DNA of 64,000 bases from Amphritea sp. GTDB lineage: Bacteria; Pseudomonadota; Gammaproteobacteria; Pseudomonadales; Balneatricaceae. The DNA is taken from the NCBI RefSeq assembly GCF_016744155.1, contig NZ_JADGEW010000020.1, forward strand, positions 1 to 64,000, read 5' to 3'. The number at the start of each line of letters is the position of its first letter. Positions within the stretch are counted from its first letter, which is position 1. The notes beneath the pieces were generated by a model. The model was not told the DNA's origin and did no database searches. It saw only the letters and a program-made list of their open reading frames with translations. Positions 42,901 through 50,783 of this stretch are shown here, piece by piece. The position numbers and the translations under genes were made by a program.

Positions 42901-43187
42901 TTGCTATAGAGAGGGGTTGAAAGGATCTTTAAAAACCGATGCTTTAGGACATTTGCCCTATAGGTAATTAGGGGGGAATGTATCAAAAGTCACTTGCTGC
43001 CTTATTTCCTTAATGAAATATTGTCAAGTTAAATGTCCCTGTTTTGGGGTGATTTAATAACCCCAACTGTTTTTATCAACTATCCTCTTAATCTGCGACA
43101 CAGGTTTGTCGCTAAATGGAGAACGAATCCTTAGGTGCAGTATCACATGGATAAATGGTGCTGAATAAGGGAATAGGGGGGGTGTGT
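42901..43187. other. Leader region of the sigma-54 activator gene
   Basis: AT-rich DNA between the dctM remnant and the activator gene. It should carry the activator's promoter, but no clear -35/-10 pair or -24/-12 element stands out. A perfect short inverted repeat GTTATTT/AAATAAC lies just before it at 42815-42831, within the weakly aligned part of the remnant. Confidence 0.4.
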
Positions 43188-44555
43188 GTGAATATTCCAA
43201 TTGTGGAATGTCGTCGTCCAGTTTTATATGTACGGACAAATAATAAGAGTGATTCTATTAGCAAAGCCGTTATTTCTACCCAGGGCTGGGATATTAAAGA
43301 AGTAGACGGGCTGCAGGAAGCAAGGAATAGCATTGGTAGTCAGAAGTATAGTGTCGGCTTAATTCAGCTTGTAAGTGTTGAGCCAGAACAGCTTCGCGCA
43401 GTAGAAGCTCTGTTAACTGATCATCGCACCATCGAGTGGGTGATTATAACGAGCACTGAATGTTTGCAGCAGCGAACTTTTTGTAAGCTTATTCGTGAAA
43501 CCTGCCATGACTATTACACTTTGCCTTTGTCGGATGTAGATTATATGCGGCTGCTGTCGACGTTGGGTCATGCTCATGGAATGGCAAGTCTCTGCTTAGA
43601 TGACTTAGAGCAAGGTTACGATGACTATGAGATGGTGGGGAGTAGCCCGCCGATGCTTAAACTGTTTGGCTCGATTCGTAAGGTGGCCAGTGTCGATGCA
43701 CCGGTTTTGATATACGGTGAAAGTGGAACAGGAAAGGAGTTGATCGCTAGGGCTGTCCATGAGCGTTCTGCCCGTGCAGAGATGCCATTCATTGCTGTGA
43801 ACTGCGGCGCTATTCCTGAAAGCCTCATTCAATCTGAGTTATTTGGCTATGAAAAGGGTGCATTTACCGGTGCTAATACCCAGAAGTGTGGGCAGATCGA
43901 GGCTGCAGCCGGAGGGACTCTCTTTCTGGATGAGATTGGCGACCTACCTTTTGATATGCAAGTCAACCTACTGCGTTTCTTGCAGGAAAAAGTGATTCAG
44001 CGATTGGGTGGCAATACAGAAATTCCGGTGGATGTCAGAGTCGTTGCGGCGACGAATGTTGATCTTGATGCCGCCGTTAAATGTGGTAGGTTTCGTGAAG
44101 ATTTACTTTATCGGTTGAATGTTTTGCAGCTGCAGCCGCCCCCATTGCGAGAAAGGGAAGGAGACACTCAGCTGATGGCGAAATTTTTCTTCGATCGCTT
44201 TGTTTCAGATGGACAGGCAAAACTTAAAGGGTTCTCTCAGGCATCTCTACAGGTGATGGAGCGATATACCTGGCCGGGTAATGTCAGGGAACTGATTAAT
44301 CGAATACGCCGGGCAATTGTTATGTGCGATGGCCGGTTGATTAAACCGGACGATCTGGACCTGCAGAGCTGCAGTGCTGATGATGCCCGCCCGGTTATCT
44401 CATTGGAAGAGGCCAGAGAAAAGGCGGAGAAAGAGGCTGTTATCAGTGCGATAAGGTACTGCCATAACAATATGACTCAGACTGCTAAGGTGTTGGGTGT
44501 GTCCAGAGTGACTTTGTATCGGATCATCGAAAAGTATCAATTGTCTGTTTCATAG
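43188..44555 (+). CDS. VpsR/NtrC-like sigma-54-dependent activator
   Basis: 455-aa regulator with an atypical N-terminal receiver-like domain (about 1-135) that lacks an evident phospho-acceptor Asp (VGLIQL where VGLIDL would be expected), an AAA+ domain (about 150-380) with Walker A GESGTGKELIAR, GAFTGA sigma-54 contact loop and Walker B GGTLFLDEIGDL, and a Fis-type helix-turn-helix at the C-terminus. The architecture is like VpsR, a c-di-GMP-responsive matrix activator. It lies directly upstream of the fap-like operon with its sigma-54 promoter, its probable target. GTG 43188 follows an AGGGGGGG site; ATG 43155 is the alternative. Confidence 0.85.
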   Translation: MNIPIVECRRPVLYVRTNNKSDSISKAVISTQGWDIKEVDGLQEARNSIGSQKYSVGLIQLVSVEPEQLRAVEALLTDHRTIEWVIITSTECLQQRTFCKLIRETCHDYYTLPLSDVDYMRLLSTLGHAHGMASLCLDDLEQGYDDYEMVGSSPPMLKLFGSIRKVASVDAPVLIYGESGTGKELIARAVHERSARAEMPFIAVNCGAIPESLIQSELFGYEKGAFTGANTQKCGQIEAAAGGTLFLDEIGDLPFDMQVNLLRFLQEKVIQRLGGNTEIPVDVRVVAATNVDLDAAVKCGRFREDLLYRLNVLQLQPPPLREREGDTQLMAKFFFDRFVSDGQAKLKGFSQASLQVMERYTWPGNVRELINRIRRAIVMCDGRLIKPDDLDLQSCSADDARPVISLEEAREKAEKEAVISAIRYCHNNMTQTAKVLGVSRVTLYRIIEKYQLSVS

Positions 44556-44588
44556 TAATTGTTTCTTAATATTTTGAATTTTAAGTAA

Positions 44589-44614
44589 AAAAACCGCCAA
44601 TGGCGGTTTTTTTT
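44589..44614 (+). terminator. Terminator after the activator gene
   Basis: AAACCGCCA / TGGCGGTTT stem followed by a T run. Confidence 0.9.
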
Positions 44615-44615
44615 C

Positions 44616-44637
44616 GTCTTATCGATACCGATAAGAC
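44616..44637. repeat. Perfect inverted repeat
   Basis: Arms GTCTTATCG and CGATAAGAC with an ATAC loop, directly after the activator terminator and about 190 bp before the fap promoter. No T tract follows. Could be an operator or a second terminator stem. Confidence 0.5.
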
Positions 44638-44787
44638 CCCTCGTATGACGATTGTAATGCTGCCTTTACACTTATCGATGAATATCTAACTGTCTGATAT
44701 TAAACTATTTTAGTTTCGATTCTTAAATTGTTGTTAACCTCCTGAAACAGTTACAGCCTCTCTCTCGCTTAGAAGAGGGCTCTGTAG

Positions 44788-44810
44788 ATGATTAATCTTA
44801 TGTAAATCAT
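44788..44810. promoter_or_regulatory. Possible activator-binding inverted repeat
   Basis: ATGATT (44788-44793) and AATCAT (44805-44810) form an inverted repeat about 15 bp upstream of the sigma-54 promoter. A site so close is unusual for NtrC-type activators (which often bind 80-150 bp upstream) but known for VpsR-like ones. Function is inference. Confidence 0.35.
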
Positions 44811-44823
44811 ATAGATAGTTTTT

Positions 44824-44840
44824 TTGGTTCTGTTTTTGCT
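44824..44840 (+). promoter_or_regulatory. Sigma-54 (-24/-12) promoter of the fap-like operon
   Basis: TTGGTTCTGTTTTTGCT has GG at 44826-44827 and GC at 44838-44839, the correct 12-base phase for a -24/-12 element. It lies about 40 bp upstream of the fapA start, between a sigma-54 activator gene and the operon. The only weakness is the lack of the usual CAC after TTGG. Confidence 0.75.
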
Positions 44841-44880
44841 TTGTAGTAAGTGAACTTAGTCCACTTATCAGGTGATCAGA

Positions 44881-45213
44881 ATGATCAATAGGTTAACCCC
44901 AATCAGTATTGAAAAAGTTTTAGCAGTTACTTTGCTATCGCTTGCTGGATTGTGGTGGGCGCCTGCGCTGATGGCTGATCAACGGGTGGGGGATCAGTTA
45001 TTTGCGTCTGATTCAGGCATTGCAGTAGCAATGTTGGATGAGGGTCAACTTGGAGCTGTTCGCGGACAAGGAATAGATCACGCGATTCCGTCGGCTCAGA
45101 TGGAACTGGGCATTATTCTCTGGGATGAAGGGAGTATTAAAAAAGGGAATCGAAATATTCAAGGTTATGGCAATTCAGTTGTAACCGTCAAAGTCTATCT
45201 GGAGGGGCGCTGA
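44881..45213 (+). CDS. fapA: FapA-like small exported protein
   Basis: 110-aa protein, first gene of the fap-like operon. Signal peptide to about residue 32 (WWAPALMADQ). Residues 52-64, LDEGQLGAVRGQG, match the motif LxDxELxxxRGR of the fapE-like product in this operon. The C-terminal half is beta-rich (MELGIILWDEG, SVVTVKVYLEGR). The name rests on gene position and the exported, small size; the similarity to Pseudomonas FapA (proposed chaperone) is weak by eye. ATG 44881 is preceded by AGGTGA; GTG at 44872 is less likely. The next gene starts 2 bp after its stop. Confidence 0.6.
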   Translation: MINRLTPISIEKVLAVTLLSLAGLWWAPALMADQRVGDQLFASDSGIAVAMLDEGQLGAVRGQGIDHAIPSAQMELGIILWDEGSIKKGNRNIQGYGNSVVTVKVYLEGR

Positions 45214-45215
45214 TT

Positions 45216-45854
45216 ATGAAAGGCTCTCTCTCTACTCAACCTGTTAATTGTTTATTGATGCTGCTGATGGCTGCTAGTGCTGCTGCCGAAACGCCACTGG
45301 CGGTTGAACAATTTGAATACAGTAATCAGGCAGTGATTGGTGATTTTGCTTTGGAAAGTAGTCGCGGAATTATCGGCGTCAATGTTGTCGCAGGGGATTC
45401 TAATGCTCAGCTTAATGCTCGTGCTCTTGCTGTAAGTATCGGTCAGGGTTTGGGTGCAACGGCACAGATCAAAGCTTCACAACATGTTGGCCTTCCCGGG
45501 GGGGGGCTTTATTCAGCTGTCAGTCTGATTGAGGGCAATGCATTTTCCAATGCTTCTGGCCTTATCTCTATTAACCATGCAAGTGGTTCCGGTAATGCAC
45601 AACTCAATGACGTTGCTATCGGTTTTGCTTTAGGCGGGGTTGCGGTTTCTGAAAGTGAGTTAAGTCTCACGGTAACCGGTCAATCTGCCAGCCAGCTTAC
45701 CAGTGATAGTAATGGACAACATCGGCAAGTATCGATCGGTGAGGGTGCCTTTAATGGAGCCAGTGGCGTAGTACAGATCAACCAATTGGCAGGTTCAGGA
45801 AATGCAACAAGTAACAGTTTTGGTCTCAGTGTTTCGTTGGGAACAAAAAAATAA
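45216..45854 (+). CDS. fapB: FapB-like minor amyloid subunit
   Basis: 212-aa exported protein with a signal peptide (about 1-24, SAAAETP) and three amyloid-type repeats near residues 44-74, 107-138 and 177-207. Each has the form G-(I/L/V)-x-x-(I/V)-N-x-x-(A/S)-G-x-(S/G)-N-A-x-x-N (GVNVVAGDSNAQLN, SINHASGSGNAQLN, QINQLAGSGNATSN), the repeat core known for Fap fibril proteins. FapB is regarded as the fibril nucleator. Linkers between repeats are about 35-40 residues and rich in Ser and Gly. There is no cysteine in the mature part, while Pseudomonas FapB/FapC carry a C-terminal CxxC. GGAGGGG ribosome site precedes the ATG. Confidence 0.75.
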   Translation: MKGSLSTQPVNCLLMLLMAASAAAETPLAVEQFEYSNQAVIGDFALESSRGIIGVNVVAGDSNAQLNARALAVSIGQGLGATAQIKASQHVGLPGGGLYSAVSLIEGNAFSNASGLISINHASGSGNAQLNDVAIGFALGGVAVSESELSLTVTGQSASQLTSDSNGQHRQVSIGEGAFNGASGVVQINQLAGSGNATSNSFGLSVSLGTKK

Positions 45855-45899
45855 TCGGGAATATACCCCGGTGCTTGAAGAATAAAAAGGAGAAGGACC

Positions 45900-47213
45900 A
45901 TGAAACAGGTATTTAAAATGGCGCCGTTGGCCGTCGCAGTAGCTGCACTTAGCTTTTCAGGTTTCGCCCTCGCAGAAGGTAACTCTCATGGCGACTCTGG
46001 GGCCCATTTAAGTAAGCATGTCCATGTTAAAAAAAGTGTTGAGTACTCAGGTGATGTTGCAATCACAGGTCGTATTCGTGTCGATTCTTTGGGTATGGCT
46101 GTGGTTGATCAAGAACAGGATAGTGATAATAACCTGACCATAAATGACCGCGTGGATAACTCTGCCACACTTGACGGTAACGCCCTCAAAGGTGCTAAAG
46201 GTAATATTGGCGTGAACATCAGTGCCGGTGATCATAACGTGCAGAGTAATGCTGCAGCGCTGGCTGCTGCCGATGCCGGGTTTGTGTTTGGCTCCGCCGA
46301 TGCTGAGATCTTTATGGATCAGAATGCGGAAGATAATGTCGCGTTCAACTGGGGGACAATCAATACCGCTGACTTTAGTGGTAATGCGCTAGAGAATGCC
46401 CGGGGTAATATCGGTGTAAATATTGCGGCGGGTAGTAGTAACGTCCAGGCAAACTCTTTTGCTGGCTCTGTTGCTTCTGGCTCTATGGGTGAAGCGACTG
46501 TATCGGTTGCTCAGGAAACCGAAAATAATCAGGTTCATAACTTGCCTGAAGAAACCCATGAAATAATTACCACTCAGGTTTCTATGAATGGTGCTATGGG
46601 TGGTAGTTATAACGGTTCTGGTAGCGGAAGTTATAGCGGTACGAACTCCGGTGCTAGCTATAGTGGTGTTAATAGCGCTGCTCGCTATAGTGGCAGTAAT
46701 GGTCCTGCAACGTATTCAGGCACTTCAAGTCAAAGTAACGATGTTTATCCAGAAGTCTGGATTAATGGTGATGGCCATGAACAGGGAGGCGGCACCTCTT
46801 ATTGGGGGCATATTGATTTTGATAACGATAACGTTTCACCTGGTGGTGATAATGACGATCCAGGTCGCTTTGAATTTACTGAAAGCGGCACTATCTCAGG
46901 TTCAAGAGAAAATGGTGTCGTTTCCGCTCATGGTGAAAGAGGCCGTGTTGGTCCGAGCAGAGAGAGAGGTCGTGTAGGTTTCTCTGAAGCAGGTACGCAA
47001 TCCCTCAGCGGCACCTTCACTGGTAGTGTTGAGCACCTGGTTAGCCGTTATGTGCGTCATGAGAACAACGCAGCAATGGGTGACAATGTATTACGTGGTG
47101 CGAAGGGTAATATCGGCGTGAACATTACTGCCGGTACTAGTAATCTGCAAAATAATAGTCTGGCTATGACTAAGGTAGACAGTACGGCTATTACAACACC
47201 TTCGGGTGAGTGA
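45900..47213 (+). CDS. fapC: FapC-like major amyloid subunit
   Basis: 437-aa exported protein, the likely main fibril subunit. Signal peptide to about residue 25 (GFALAEG). Three strongly similar repeats lie at about 93-122, 161-190 and 395-423, each containing (G/N)A(K/R)GNIGVNI-x-AG-xx-N-(V/L)Q-x-N. The first linker is about 40 residues; the second is over 200 and contains an imperfect Tyr-Ser-Gly repeat tract (about 235-280) and an RGRV-type tract (about 345-362). The mature protein has no Cys. A strong AAGGAGAAGG site before the ATG suggests high expression. Confidence 0.8.
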   Translation: MKQVFKMAPLAVAVAALSFSGFALAEGNSHGDSGAHLSKHVHVKKSVEYSGDVAITGRIRVDSLGMAVVDQEQDSDNNLTINDRVDNSATLDGNALKGAKGNIGVNISAGDHNVQSNAAALAAADAGFVFGSADAEIFMDQNAEDNVAFNWGTINTADFSGNALENARGNIGVNIAAGSSNVQANSFAGSVASGSMGEATVSVAQETENNQVHNLPEETHEIITTQVSMNGAMGGSYNGSGSGSYSGTNSGASYSGVNSAARYSGSNGPATYSGTSSQSNDVYPEVWINGDGHEQGGGTSYWGHIDFDNDNVSPGGDNDDPGRFEFTESGTISGSRENGVVSAHGERGRVGPSRERGRVGFSEAGTQSLSGTFTGSVEHLVSRYVRHENNAAMGDNVLRGAKGNIGVNITAGTSNLQNNSLAMTKVDSTAITTPSGE

Positions 47214-47300
47214 AAGTTCTAATATATAAACTTTTGCTGAGATGATCTGAGCCGGGCTGTTAAATCAGCCTGGCTTCAGACTGTTATAAGCGGGCTTATT

Positions 47301-48026
47301 ATGATGATTAGCAAGATTACTATTAGTTGCGCCAGGATTCCAGATGCCGTTTTGGCTCTGGTTCTGGTGCTATTTATTAACTCCCCTGTATATGCCGCTC
47401 AGATTGAGTTGGCTAACGTTCTTCCCGGTAGCTCAAACCTGAGTAAGCCGGTGATCAGTATGCGTGAGCAACGCTATCAGCATCTTATAAAACAGCAGAC
47501 TGACTTTAGTTGTGGCGCCGCGGCATTGGCTACTGTGCTCAGGTATGGCTACGGCCTGCGAGTCACAGAAGAAGATATGCTGGATGGTCTGTTTGCCGTT
47601 AGTGATATTGAACAAGTTCGGGCACGGGGGTTTTCGCTACTAAATATTAAACACTATCTGGAGCGCGTGGGTATGCGTGGCCGGGGTTATAAAGTTGAGC
47701 CTGATACTCTGCAAGGAATAAAGATACCAACCATTGTTCTGCTGGATCTCAAAGGTTATAAGCACTTCGTTGTATTAAAGAAGACCGAAGAGAATCTTGT
47801 CTATCTGGCGGATCCAGCTTTGGGTAATAAAATCATGCCAATAGATGATTTTTTATCGAGTTGGAACGGTATTGTCTTTGCTGTCATTGGGCGTGGATTT
47901 AATAAATCATCTGTTTTGATTAATCCACAGCGTCAACTAACCGCCCGGAGCTTAAGCAATACATTCGCACCTCTGAGTGACGCGCAGTTACTGGAACATG
48001 GTTTTCGCCATGCCGAACTGTTTTAA
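47301..48026 (+). CDS. fapD: FapD-like C39-family cysteine peptidase
   Basis: 241-aa exported peptidase of the C39 (bacteriocin-leader) type without transporter domains. Signal peptide to about residue 33 (NSPVYAAQ). The catalytic triad is visible: Cys71 in TDFSCGAAALATVL, with Gln65/66 upstream as oxyanion residue, His155 in KGYKHFVVLKK and Asp171 in YLADPALG. In Pseudomonas, FapD is needed for fibril export and processing. Its substrates here are not known; the RG motifs of the fapA- and fapE-like proteins are candidates. Gap of 87 bp from fapC shows no terminator. Confidence 0.85.
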   Translation: MMISKITISCARIPDAVLALVLVLFINSPVYAAQIELANVLPGSSNLSKPVISMREQRYQHLIKQQTDFSCGAAALATVLRYGYGLRVTEEDMLDGLFAVSDIEQVRARGFSLLNIKHYLERVGMRGRGYKVEPDTLQGIKIPTIVLLDLKGYKHFVVLKKTEENLVYLADPALGNKIMPIDDFLSSWNGIVFAVIGRGFNKSSVLINPQRQLTARSLSNTFAPLSDAQLLEHGFRHAELF

Positions 48027-48050
48027 CTTCCCGAAAGGGAGGAGTAAGTC

Positions 48051-48863
48051 ATGAACAGCTGTCAATGGAATAAAAGAATAGGAGTAACAGCAGGGCCGGC
48101 AATTTTAAGTTTGTTTTTATTGTTGCCAAATAGTTCAAATGCGGCCCAACAAACAGGCCCATTTGGTTTACAGGGAGGAGTAGTAAGTGATGTTGAGCTT
48201 GCCGCAATGCGAGGGCGTTTTGTCGATGGGCGCAAAGTAGCATTTTTTGGTATACGTATGCGTACGGACTGGCAACGCCAGGGGGGGCGCGACTTTAATA
48301 TGGAGATGCGTGTCAATTTTGATTTTGGCCGCGATCGCTACCGTCCGCATATGACGATGTACCGTAGCCGAAATATTGGCTTGTCAGTGCCGTCGGAAGA
48401 GGTGCAACAGTCATCTTTAGATAATGTGTCGGACAATGGCGCTCTGGAAAATATCTCCGGGGTAGTGCAGAGCATTCAGGTCGCTGGAGATCGTAATAGT
48501 GTCCACAATGCTGTCGATTGGACGGTGACTGATTCTGAGATTGTTCCTGATACTGAAGGGCTGATAGAGGTAGATGATACGGGTACCCGCAGTCATCTGA
48601 GCGATGAAGGTGTTAATACCCAGGTCTCTGTTGATGCTGAAGGTGTTGGTTATCAGGTTGATATTCCTGATTTTGGTTCGGTGTCTCAGCAAATTACCCG
48701 CTCACAGTTTTCCGGCGGGAATATACTCCAGAGTACTCAGCTAAATAGCGATTTAAATCAGGTGCTTAACCGTATTGGTTTGACTGTCGAGCTAAGCTCG
48801 TCGCTATCGGAGTTTCGTCCTAATGGAGTCCTCCGATCTTTGAATCATCTCAGAGGTTTATAG
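48051..48863 (+). CDS. fapE: FapE-like exported protein
   Basis: 270-aa protein with a signal peptide (about 1-31, NSSNAAQQ). Residues 44-57, VVSDVELAAMRGRF, carry the motif shared with the fapA-like product, followed by FFGIRMRTDWQRQGG and a basic/aromatic segment. Further on there is one degenerate Fap-type repeat, GALENISGVVQSIQVAGDRNSVHNAV (about 130-155 in two parts), and a Gln/Asn-rich C-terminal region. In Pseudomonas FapE is found in the fibrils at low level. Ribosome site GGGAGGAG before ATG 48051. Confidence 0.65.
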   Translation: MNSCQWNKRIGVTAGPAILSLFLLLPNSSNAAQQTGPFGLQGGVVSDVELAAMRGRFVDGRKVAFFGIRMRTDWQRQGGRDFNMEMRVNFDFGRDRYRPHMTMYRSRNIGLSVPSEEVQQSSLDNVSDNGALENISGVVQSIQVAGDRNSVHNAVDWTVTDSEIVPDTEGLIEVDDTGTRSHLSDEGVNTQVSVDAEGVGYQVDIPDFGSVSQQITRSQFSGGNILQSTQLNSDLNQVLNRIGLTVELSSSLSEFRPNGVLRSLNHLRGL

Positions 48864-48957
48864 AGCGGCAGGCTGAATACCTGCTACTTTTAACTATGGG
48901 TATGTGCAAAGTGATCCGTCGGATCGCTTTGCATTTTCAGGGAAAGGGGGAAGTAAA

Positions 48958-50184
48958 ATGATTTACAGATCACATTGGGGCCGGTCAGGGATGGCTGTGA
49001 GCCTGTTAAGTCTGGCGGTATGTCAGGTCGTCTTGGCTGAAGAAGCTGCGATGGTAAGTGATGGAGAGCAGTTAAAATTCGAAATTCAACAATTAAAACT
49101 AATTAATGAACGACAGGCGCAAACGCTTAGAGAGATGGAACAGCGGCTCTATTCACTGGAGAATGGCGGGCAATCTATACAAGCTAAACCTCAGCAGCAA
49201 ACGGCTCAGAATAAAGTAGTGAAATCAGCCGCGCCCAGCTCCAGTGTTGATAATATAATGCAAGAGGAGCATGCACTTTTCAGTAATAACTTTACGGTAG
49301 AGCTGGGCATGAATTATAGCCATTACGACCGTAAGGAACTCGTGTTGGAAGGTTTTCTGGCGCTGGATGCTATCTTCTTGGGTGACATCTCGGTTGATGA
49401 TATCTCAGCAGATATTTATACCTTCGATGCAACGGGGCGTTATAACGTCAACGATCGCTGGCAGGTTGGTGCCAATTTGCCCTTTGTTTACAGGAACACA
49501 TCGTTTCAACGTAATGTAAATGGTGTTGGCGCTGAAGCGACTGTGGATGAAGCTGATTTAGGCGACATCACTCTAACGTCTGCGTACAAACTCTTTAATG
49601 AAACGGGTAGCAGGCCAGATATAGTCTGGAACCTGAGTATTAAAGCGCCTACCGGCAGTCACCCCTATGGAACACCAACGGTCACCAAGTCAGTAACCAA
49701 CGCTAGTGGTACTGATACCGTTACTTATCCCAAGGAGCTGCCTACCGGAAGTGGTTTATGGAGTATCAGCAATAGTCTGTCTTTTGTAAAAACGACGGAT
49801 CCCGCCATTCTTTTTGCCAATGTGGGTTATACCCATAACCTGGATGGGAGTTTTGATGATATTAGTTCTACTTCGGGGGATCAGCCTGGGGATGTTCGTT
49901 TAGGTGACTCTATTTTCTATGGTCTGGGAATGGCGTTTGCGATGAATGAGCGCATGAGTATGAGTGTGTCATTATCACAGAGAATCAGTCAGAAAAGTGA
50001 GACGCGGTTGGAGGGAAGTGATTGGCAAGATATCTTTGGTAGTGATGGTAATGCGGCGACCTTTAATACCGGCATTACTTATGCTTTGAGTGATAAGCTA
50101 TCAATGTCAACCACTCTTGGTATTGGTCTCACTCCCGATGCGCCTGACTTCTCTCTCGGAATAAAATTCCCCTACCGCTTTTAA
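48958..50184 (+). CDS. fapF: FapF-like outer-membrane export pore
   Basis: 408-aa outer-membrane protein. Signal peptide to about residue 27 (VVLAEEA), a coiled coil at about 37-70 (LKFEIQQLKLINERQAQTLREMEQ...), a Gln/Ser/Lys-rich linker to about 100, and a beta-barrel that begins near NNFTVELGMNYSHYD and ends in a C-terminal Phe (KFPYRF), typical of barrel proteins. Pseudomonas FapF has the same order and forms a trimeric pore that secretes the fibril subunits. ATG 48958 follows AAAGGGGG; the frame extends upstream, but without a ribosome site. A hairpin follows the stop. Confidence 0.8.
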   Translation: MIYRSHWGRSGMAVSLLSLAVCQVVLAEEAAMVSDGEQLKFEIQQLKLINERQAQTLREMEQRLYSLENGGQSIQAKPQQQTAQNKVVKSAAPSSSVDNIMQEEHALFSNNFTVELGMNYSHYDRKELVLEGFLALDAIFLGDISVDDISADIYTFDATGRYNVNDRWQVGANLPFVYRNTSFQRNVNGVGAEATVDEADLGDITLTSAYKLFNETGSRPDIVWNLSIKAPTGSHPYGTPTVTKSVTNASGTDTVTYPKELPTGSGLWSISNSLSFVKTTDPAILFANVGYTHNLDGSFDDISSTSGDQPGDVRLGDSIFYGLGMAFAMNERMSMSVSLSQRISQKSETRLEGSDWQDIFGSDGNAATFNTGITYALSDKLSMSTTLGIGLTPDAPDFSLGIKFPYRF

Positions 50185-50197
50185 AATTATAAAATTC

Positions 50198-50226
50198 CCG
50201 GGCCAGAGATGGCCCGGATATTCTTT
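50198..50226 (+). terminator. Terminator of the fap-like operon
   Basis: CCGGGCC (50198-50204) pairs with GGCCCGG (50211-50217); the T tract is short (ATATTCTTT), so strength is moderate. Confidence 0.6.
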
Positions 50227-50276: not shown

Positions 50277-50783
50277 TTGCCTGTGTTGGGTCGTATTGCA
50301 GTTTTATGGGGTTTTGCCGGCATTGCCTTTGTTTTTGGCAATGCGATTGTGCGTCTGGGGGCTATCGGGTTCGATACCTTCCTCTTCTCGCTTAGCTGGT
50401 ATCACTGGGTGGCTTTAGCCGTCAGTGTTGTGTTTATGGGGTTTGCCGAAGGTTATAAAGGGTTTCAGAGAGGTTACTCGCCCCGAGTTGCTGCTCGATT
50501 ATTGTTTCTTCGAGATAATGTGACCCCTCTGCGCTTTATTCTTGCGCCTCTATTTTGTATGGGGTTTTTCGATATACAGCGTAAAAGGATGATTGTCAGT
50601 TACTGTCTGTTGTTGGGGATTCTGATGCTAGTGCAGCTGGTGCATATGTTGGAGCAACCCTGGCGAGGGATTGTTGACCTAGGGGTGGTGGTAGGCCTGA
50701 CTTGGGGCAGTACCTCAATCATTCTATTTACTCTGAAAGCGTTCTTTACCGACCGCTTTGAGCACTCGCCTGAGATGCCTTAA
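50277..50783 (+). CDS. Conserved inner-membrane protein, unknown function
   Basis: 168-aa protein with four to five membrane segments (about 3-25, 42-60, 86-100, 105-122, 132-155). I do not recognise the family with certainty. A positively charged loop (GYKGFQRGYSPRVAARLL) lies after the second segment. The start is unclear: TTG 50277 or GTG 50283; no strong ribosome site. It is not part of the fap-like operon because a hairpin separates them. Confidence 0.7.
   Translation: MPVLGRIAVLWGFAGIAFVFGNAIVRLGAIGFDTFLFSLSWYHWVALAVSVVFMGFAEGYKGFQRGYSPRVAARLLFLRDNVTPLRFILAPLFCMGFFDIQRKRMIVSYCLLLGILMLVQLVHMLEQPWRGIVDLGVVVGLTWGSTSIILFTLKAFFTDRFEHSPEMP

Follow-up and report, generated by a model that had tools for sequence, protein, structure and literature searches.

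How the genes for a secreted bacterial amyloid are switched on, and by which protein, is the question raised by a locus in a 64,000-nucleotide stretch of Amphritea sp. DNA (positions 1 to 64,000 of contig NZ_JADGEW010000020.1, assembly GCF_016744155.1), referred to here as the window. The open reading frame (ORF) list places an activator gene and six further co-directional genes, all on the + strand, at 43155-50184. Quite probably this is a Fap-type amyloid operon switched on by the neighboring activator, a protein of the BrfA type, via two palindromes and a -24/-12 promoter of the sigma-54 class, and it is likely responsive to cyclic diguanosine monophosphate (c-di-GMP). The genes, their domains, the palindromes, a promoter-like site, the conservation of these elements and the co-occurrence of activator and palindromes are the observations from which this explanation is built.

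The initial annotation had placed a sigma-54 promoter ahead of the first operon gene, and a promoter-like site is found at that point, recognized by sequence conservation only. In an alignment of nine Amphritea-group upstream regions, the window's among them, its TGG and T.GC elements are invariant and in register. A sigma-70 scan returned promoter-like sites no more commonly than in shuffled sequence (9 vs 15.3). Upstream of the -24/-12 site lie two palindromes of the form TGT-N12-ACA, 79 base pairs (bp) apart, which are predicted to be enhancer sites of the linked activator (Table 1). The pattern TGTW-N10-WACA occurs in all nine of the Amphritea-group upstream regions, with 18 copies in 3,075 bp, and the strict palindrome occurs seven times in the whole 64-kb window, two of these copies being the pair before the operon.

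The association of activator and fap genes extends well beyond the source genome (4.15 Mb, from a marine bacterium of the Amphritea group), the named relatives including Amphritea balenae, A. opalescens, Aliamphritea spongicola and Marinobacterium. Within the genus, 10 of 17 genomes carry fap, and the activator is found in nine of these ten (own included) at 58-100% identity over its full length and at least 557 bits, while the tenth (G002) has it in frameshifted pieces. In the seven genus genomes that lack fap, the best match to the activator reaches at most 421 bits (48% identity over the full length, up to 56% for the AAA domain only), apart from a 72% identical fragment in G014. With a Marinobacterium genome (G024) added, the activator is conserved beside fap in 11 of the 11 fap-bearing genomes inspected in the family, again counting the source genome, and stands upstream in ten and downstream in one. 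In most genus-mates these genes occupy a common chromosomal position; A. opalescens has the complete set at another location, with the activator behind fapF.

A broader comparison used 80 named fap loci, the best 80 of 432 by likeness to the Amphritea FapF and thus a sample biased towards the Amphritea group. A homologous activator lies within 1.6 kb in 63 of them: upstream on the same strand in 27, downstream and convergent in 30 (mostly Pseudomonas, the sampled loci of which have this arrangement), upstream and divergent in 3 (Aeromonas), downstream on the same strand in 1, and in 2 between the remaining fap genes and a fapF that stands apart from them. In this tally L041 and L060, whose overlap with fapF is a few bases long, count as downstream, and L037 appears twice in the placement table as its gene is frameshifted. 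Of the 64 full fap clusters flanked by 1.6 kb or more on each side, 57 have the activator; those that do not are four Polaromonas, two Halomonas and L102.

Several loci in this comparison deserve description in their own right. Six (L070, L077, L084, L085, L088 and L092; the four Polaromonas and two Halomonas) have about 6 kb or more on each side and form the author-chosen set of complete loci without an activator; they have no palindromes at threshold either, and these clusters are presumably controlled otherwise. In Aidingimonas and Billgrantia, a second set of FapD-like and FapF-like genes with its own VpsR-type activator lies next to the main fap cluster (L093:1042-5082, L098:1403-5584, L099:787-4912); those of its proteins that were tested, in L093 and L098, resemble FapD and FapF more than FilB and FilC, with scores far short of the cut-off. 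A Halomonas locus (L054, also L158) has two tandem fapBCDE sets and a single fapF. The fap region of Aliamphritea spongicola (L027, L037) has several frameshifts over many genes, and as neighboring genes are also affected, sequencing error rather than decay is suggested. A fap-less genome (G014) contains a 220-codon fragment, about 72-73% identical to the activator (L128:1038-1700), that adjoins a transposase-like ORF (judged by eye) and is a probable relic of fap loss.

The co-occurrence of palindromes and activator extends to other genera. Over 73 named loci, among them those of the Amphritea group, the 1 kb 5' of fapB shows a 14.6-fold enrichment of the strict pattern (48 in 72 kb vs 62 in 1,367 kb), as compared with 0.35 to 3.7-fold for control spacings n8, n9, n11 and n12 and four permuted-arm patterns. 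The near-duplicates L023 and L024 were left out of the palindrome statistics, and L024 also out of the training of a matrix that was built from 16 Amphritea-group sites only and scanned over 1.5 kb upstream of fapB. Of the 57 held-out loci from other genera that have a linked activator, this matrix finds sites in 43, at a density of 0.877 per kb in linked loci vs 0.020 elsewhere, and it finds none in the six complete loci without activator; two of four truncated loci in which no activator is visible also have sites. Eight column-permuted versions of the matrix find sites in 0-5 of the 57 loci. As far as checked, in a check that did not cover Guo 2024 (Microbiol Res), TGT-N12-ACA is new as a regulatory code.

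The distance between palindrome and promoter varies in a patterned way. Measured from the nearest palindrome to the -24 GG, Halomonas-type loci have 71-74 bp and Pseudomonas-type loci 81-84; Amphritea has 94, Aliamphritea 104 and Marinobacterium 114. These classes are separated by roughly one turn of DNA and correspond to about 7 to 11 turns of 10.4 bp. Outside the Amphritea group, the nearest distance lies within 50-130 bp in 29 loci, with 12 at 71-74, 15 at 81-84 and 2 at 114. Steps of whole turns suggest that the activator needs to be placed on a single face of the DNA helix. Two predictions were written before the loci concerned were read, the first on 12 loci and the second on 17. In the first, all eight f21 loci, taken as Pseudomonas-type, fell at 81-83, and the three f37 loci comprised one at 73, one lacking a site and one lacking both activator and site; the set includes L158 and L159, repeat records of loci in the named set (L054, L058), and L157, which has the same two sites as L047. 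The second set held 11 new loci, besides two repeats (L163, L164) and four that were not evaluable (L165, L174, L175, L178). Six of the new loci have a nearest distance within 50-130 bp (82, 80, 71, 82, 71, 84), and five of the six fall within 2 bp of the ladder, where 31% would be expected for a random distance; a seventh locus with a site (L176) has one at 171 only. The two predictions thus mostly held, with some loci off the ladder.

The activator itself has the equipment expected of a sigma-54-dependent enhancer-binding protein and matches the VpsR/NtrC-like regulator that had been recognized directly upstream of the operon. Pfam profiles find the VpsR domain (PF20161, 3.9e-15, above cut-off), Sigma54_activat and a Fis-type helix-turn-helix; no FleQ (Pseudomonas aeruginosa) N-domain is among these Pfam hits. 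The GAFTGA motif is kept in 10 of 10 close orthologues. Residue D59 of VpsR aligns with Q71, so the receiver-like domain is likely not phosphorylated at that position. An AlphaFold model, for which an alignment of 30 chosen sequences was used, has a receiver-like N-domain (mean predicted local distance difference test 84.4, predicted template modelling score 0.57) and matches NtrC-type activators, FleQ and VpsR. The source genome encodes one sigma-54 and 66 GGDEF matches, and the activator is its sole VpsR-domain match. All 10 fap-linked activators tested with Pfam, of 66 listed, have the VpsR domain above cut-off, one of them being the second-cluster protein of L093. In a tree from which the frameshifted L027 and L037 were left out, the 75 fap-linked activators branch together, separated with a support of 0.999 from 20 further activators of the source genome, and three second-cluster proteins also belong to this group. 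A second VpsR-type activator, 47-49% identical and not near fap, occurs in genus-mates (L129-L133), divergent from an ExeA-type-ATPase-like ORF (by eye).

Together these elements allow a sequence of events to be proposed. A high level of c-di-GMP, as the input assigned by orthology with BrfA, would activate the linked protein, which would then bind the predicted palindromes 94 and 173 bp upstream of the promoter and form a ring there. The intervening DNA would bend, and the activator would contact the sigma-54 polymerase at -24/-12; DNA looping to this polymerase is established for the activator family. ATP hydrolysis through the GAFTGA loop would open the polymerase complex. Export of FapB, FapC and FapE would follow, with their exit through FapF, and their secretion would require FapD. 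Export through FapF with a requirement for FapD has been reported in Pseudomonas (PMC5557850).

A number of observations weigh against this explanation. The promoter score is modest, 13th of 530 GG-N10-GC sites in the window, as is that of the distal palindrome (9.2), and the seven strict palindromes of the window compare with 3.5 in shuffles, 5 of 100 shuffles reaching seven. Among activator-linked loci, 14 of 57 have no site at threshold; the six complete fap loci have no linked activator, which is therefore not indispensable; and the fap-linked activator group also contains five genus paralogues not beside fap. The five clade medians fit the helical period with a p of 0.0018 that is post hoc, the distance classes having first been noticed in the same data. 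Seven loci have only longer distances (160, 162, 173, 176, 180, 217 and 236, in a 1.1-kb window), L079 has an extra pair at 108, and others are off the ladder, namely L161 at 148, where the first prediction missed, L176 at 171, L166 at 80 and the two repeats of the second prediction, L163 (162) and L164 (140 and 151). In that second prediction a site was found in 7 of 11 new loci, under the expected three quarters.

These observations leave room for other explanations. The palindromes, which are predicted sites read from sequence alone, might be bound by a global regulator, with the linked activator acting without them or on other genes and the spacing reflecting the other protein. The presence of proteins not beside fap in the activator's own group would suit such an arrangement, as would the palindrome-like places elsewhere: a genome search with TGTWWCAN4TGWWACA, allowing one mismatch, returns 16 against 5 for a control. 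However, 12 of these 16 lie inside ORFs and none has a sigma-54 site (score at least 18) 50-130 bp downstream on either strand, in a search that is not exhaustive because the pattern misses the window's own two degenerate sites. Moreover, the sites track the activator, being present in linked loci and absent from the complete unlinked ones, and remain while the position of its gene varies among five arrangements, so that a separate global regulator is improbable. That the neighborhood is a historical accident, co-inherited by chance while fap is driven by another promoter, is more improbable by far. Synteny alone would keep activator and fap together at the chromosomal place that most genus-mates share, and the complete loci without a linked activator are in keeping with a chance association; yet A. 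opalescens has the set together at another place, where the activator stands on the opposite flank of fap, the genes stay linked in five arrangements in different genera, and the fap-less G014 retains only a fragment of the activator.

Less easily set aside, though rather unlikely, is an activator that works as proposed with an input other than c-di-GMP, such as another ligand, a partner protein or the amount of activator. The phospho-acceptor of VpsR is missing, and it is by orthology only that c-di-GMP is assigned as the input. Against this, related or similar activators, BrfA (PMC13101488), VpsR (title of 7v2b) and BerB (PMC5552954), are reported to bind c-di-GMP. Activation by the linked protein in response to c-di-GMP, which the initial annotation had offered as an attractive idea, has thereby become plausible, because BrfA, the Pseudomonas counterpart, is reported to sense this molecule.

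The genes that the activator is predicted to control were examined with Fap profiles. NCBIfam profiles match FapB (E-value 2.2e-27), FapC (9.7e-53), FapD (9.7e-84), FapE (5.3e-26) and FapF (2.9e-122), in the order B-C-D-E-F expected of a Fap system, which supports the earlier identification of a Fap-type locus. Neither of the two outcomes that the initial annotation had named as refuting it was seen, since FapB, FapC and FapF all have profile hits and the activator is conserved next to fap in the relatives inspected. All five matches lie under the curated equivalog naming cut-offs, that for FapF being exceeded by none of the genomes surveyed for fap, and the names are for this reason used only in the sense of Fap-type homologues. 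FapB and FapC have three Fap repeats each, as had been claimed for the minor and major subunits, those of FapC being at positions 101, 169 and 403. The FapD residues Cys71, His155 and Asp171 were assigned by eye. A FapF profile made from ten relatives matches the solved FapF chains (5o65) with E 8.2e-112. A Fil-type pilus system was considered and dropped, since its profiles score far below those of Fap. Secreted amyloid fibers are the predicted product of the operon. A 168-codon membrane-protein-like ORF (50277-50783 of the window) follows fapF in most Amphritea-group loci compared and is missing beside the relocated fap cluster of A. opalescens; it is probably a neighbor outside the Fap system.

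Table 1. Features of the activator-fap locus (window positions)
Feature	Position	Strand	Basis or remark
Activator gene, BrfA type	43155..44555	+	VpsR-type N-domain, sigma-54 AAA+ domain with GAFTGA, Fis-type helix-turn-helix; alternative GTG start at 43188 (initial annotation) plausible
Inverted repeat, then T run; likely terminator between activator and operon	44591..44614	+	sequence; perfect palindrome; not among hits of terminator scan
Distal predicted enhancer palindrome TGTAATGCTGCCTTTACA	44653..44670	.	173 bp before -24 GG
Proximal predicted enhancer palindrome TGTTAACCTCCTGAAACA	44732..44749	.	94 bp before -24 GG
Predicted -24/-12 sigma-54 promoter TTGGTTCTGTTTTTGCT	44824..44840	+	GG at 44826, GC at 44838
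Gene X, distinct from fapA; product small, apparently exported, containing LDEGQLGAVRG and ILWDE	44881..45213	+	start in ORF list GTG 44872
Leader-like motif LDEGQLGAVRG in gene X	45034-45066		
fapB-type gene, three repeats	45216..45854	+	NCBIfam profile
fapC-type gene, three repeats, second linker long	45900..47213	+	NCBIfam profile, alignment
fapD-type gene, C39 peptidase	47301..48026	+	profile
fapE-type gene, VSDVELAAMRGRF after signal peptide	48051..48863	+	profile
Leader-like motif VSDVELAAMRGRF in FapE	48183-48221		
fapF-type gene, coiled coil and barrel	48958..50184	+	profile; start in ORF list GTG 48904
Terminator-like hairpin 3' of fapF	50198..50217	+	terminator scan

The first gene of the operon requires a change of name. 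The initial annotation equated the six genes with fapABCDEF, which stands for B to F and fails for fapA, as profile comparison puts the small exported protein in another family. Gene 1 of the Amphritea group scores 3.3% against Pseudomonas FapA in hhalign and 98.8% (E 1.4e-16) against the first small ORF of other operons. Many sampled non-Pseudomonas fap operons have two small ORFs 5' of fapB, and gene 1 reaches only 6.7% against the second of these. The second small ORF matches Pseudomonas FapA at 97.9% and the first at 0.7%, so that by profile comparison the second ORF of two-ORF operons is FapA and the first belongs to the family termed here gene X. This family is marked by the signature LxDxxLxxIRG followed by ILWDE; a profile search collects 37 proteins, the window's own among them, and the relatives, where their source names them, are hypothetical or uncharacterized. 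Gene 1 shares 85% identity with an A. japonica protein. On these profile assignments the operon is X-fapB-C-D-E-F and lacks the canonical fapA. Canonical FapA is not defining for a Fap system, as fapA is reported missing in 6 of 16 genera (PMC3792158).

Gene X also bears on the target of the FapD peptidase. In FapE, a motif [LVI]SDxEL(A/G)x(L/M)RG(R/K)(F/Y) lies shortly after the signal peptide; RG is found without exception in 74 of 74 proteins, and 72 have the wider motif. A like motif is found in all nine Amphritea-group X proteins (RG in eight) and in 16 of 17 first-ORF proteins elsewhere (RG in 13). It resembles the double-glycine leaders of C39 substrates. This LSDxELxxMRG-like motif common to FapE and X may be a candidate recognition site for FapD, and cleavage after RG is put forward as a proposal. 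A 2017 study describes the target of FapD as unclear, the Fap proteins as being without canonical C39 sequences, and N-terminal processing as complete in FapE alone (PMC5557850); according to a 2025 review, the presumed target comprises the N-terminus of FapE together with part of FapF (PMC12822426). The 2017 account also provides two points against a leader of this kind: FapA is reported to have shown no processing, and FapE to be without peptides over its first ~70 residues (PMC5557850). A cut after RG would fall near residue 39 in L042, too short to explain so long a gap.

A more ambitious synthesis would treat Fap as a module that is inherited together with a c-di-GMP-driven activator of its own; this activator would read a one-face TGT-N12-ACA enhancer whose distance from the promoter changes between genera only by whole turns (7, 8, 9, 10, 11), and the FapD of the module would recognize FapE and X by an LSDxELxxMRG leader and cut them behind RG, as a periplasmic counterpart of double-glycine leader processing. 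Because of the unprocessed FapA and of a FapE gap that exceeds the RG cut, this synthesis is tentative and somewhat doubtful. The comparison offers an exact, testable enhancer code and a helical-phase rule for the switching on of a bacterial amyloid across many genera. It makes BrfA, described in Pseudomonas, a frequent fap companion across several orders, in which the activator gene changes its place relative to the fap operon and the sites do not; it revises the family to which the first gene of the operon is assigned; and it supplies a concrete candidate motif for the FapD peptidase.

Among known systems, the fapABCDEF operon of Pseudomonas (PMC3792158, PMC5557850) is described with the same B-C-D-E-F order, a three-repeat FapC, a C39 peptidase and the FapF barrel, and differs in that the window's operon has no canonical fapA. 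In a 2018 review the fap operon is said to contain no gene for a regulatory protein (PMC6173800). VpsR of Vibrio cholerae (7v2b, 7y19) has the same N-domain family and domain order as the window's activator. It is reported to have GAFTGA deleted and, with this defect, to work without sigma-54 (PMC3162934, PMC5552954), whereas GAFTGA is intact in the window's activator, which also has Q in place of VpsR D59. BerB of Burkholderia cenocepacia, reported to control berA and exopolysaccharide (PMC5552954), can be set beside the window's activator by description. A literature search for papers joining VpsR, Fap, amyloid and c-di-GMP found none.

The closest counterpart is BrfA of Pseudomonas fluorescens PF07, the gene for which is reported next to the fap genes, downstream of fapF and in reverse orientation; fap transcription drops in brfA and rpoN deletions, and a -24/-12 promoter has been mapped for fapA (PMC9207406). 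According to a 2026 paper, c-di-GMP is sensed by BrfA directly, and factors of the BrfA type occur widely in Pseudomonas (PMC13101488). The idea that the pairing of activator and amyloid is of a new kind was therefore rejected, and the novelty that the initial annotation had seen in a dedicated activator beside fap is gone: its view that this is not the standard Pseudomonas arrangement survives for gene position only, as the sampled Pseudomonas fap loci have an adjacent sigma-54 activator, one of them published as BrfA. Common to PF07 and the window are an enhancer-binding protein of RpoN-dependent type beside fap and an operon preceded by a -24/-12 promoter, in the window a predicted one. The window's activator groups with the fap-linked activators of sampled Pseudomonas loci in the tree described above, in which the PF07 BrfA sequence was not included, and the activator ORFs of L104 and L150 are 1,326 bp, the same length as brfA. 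The two differ in gene position, with brfA on the opposite strand and downstream of fapF in PF07 and the window's gene upstream on the same strand, and also in that the window's operon has gene X in place of the fapA of PF07.

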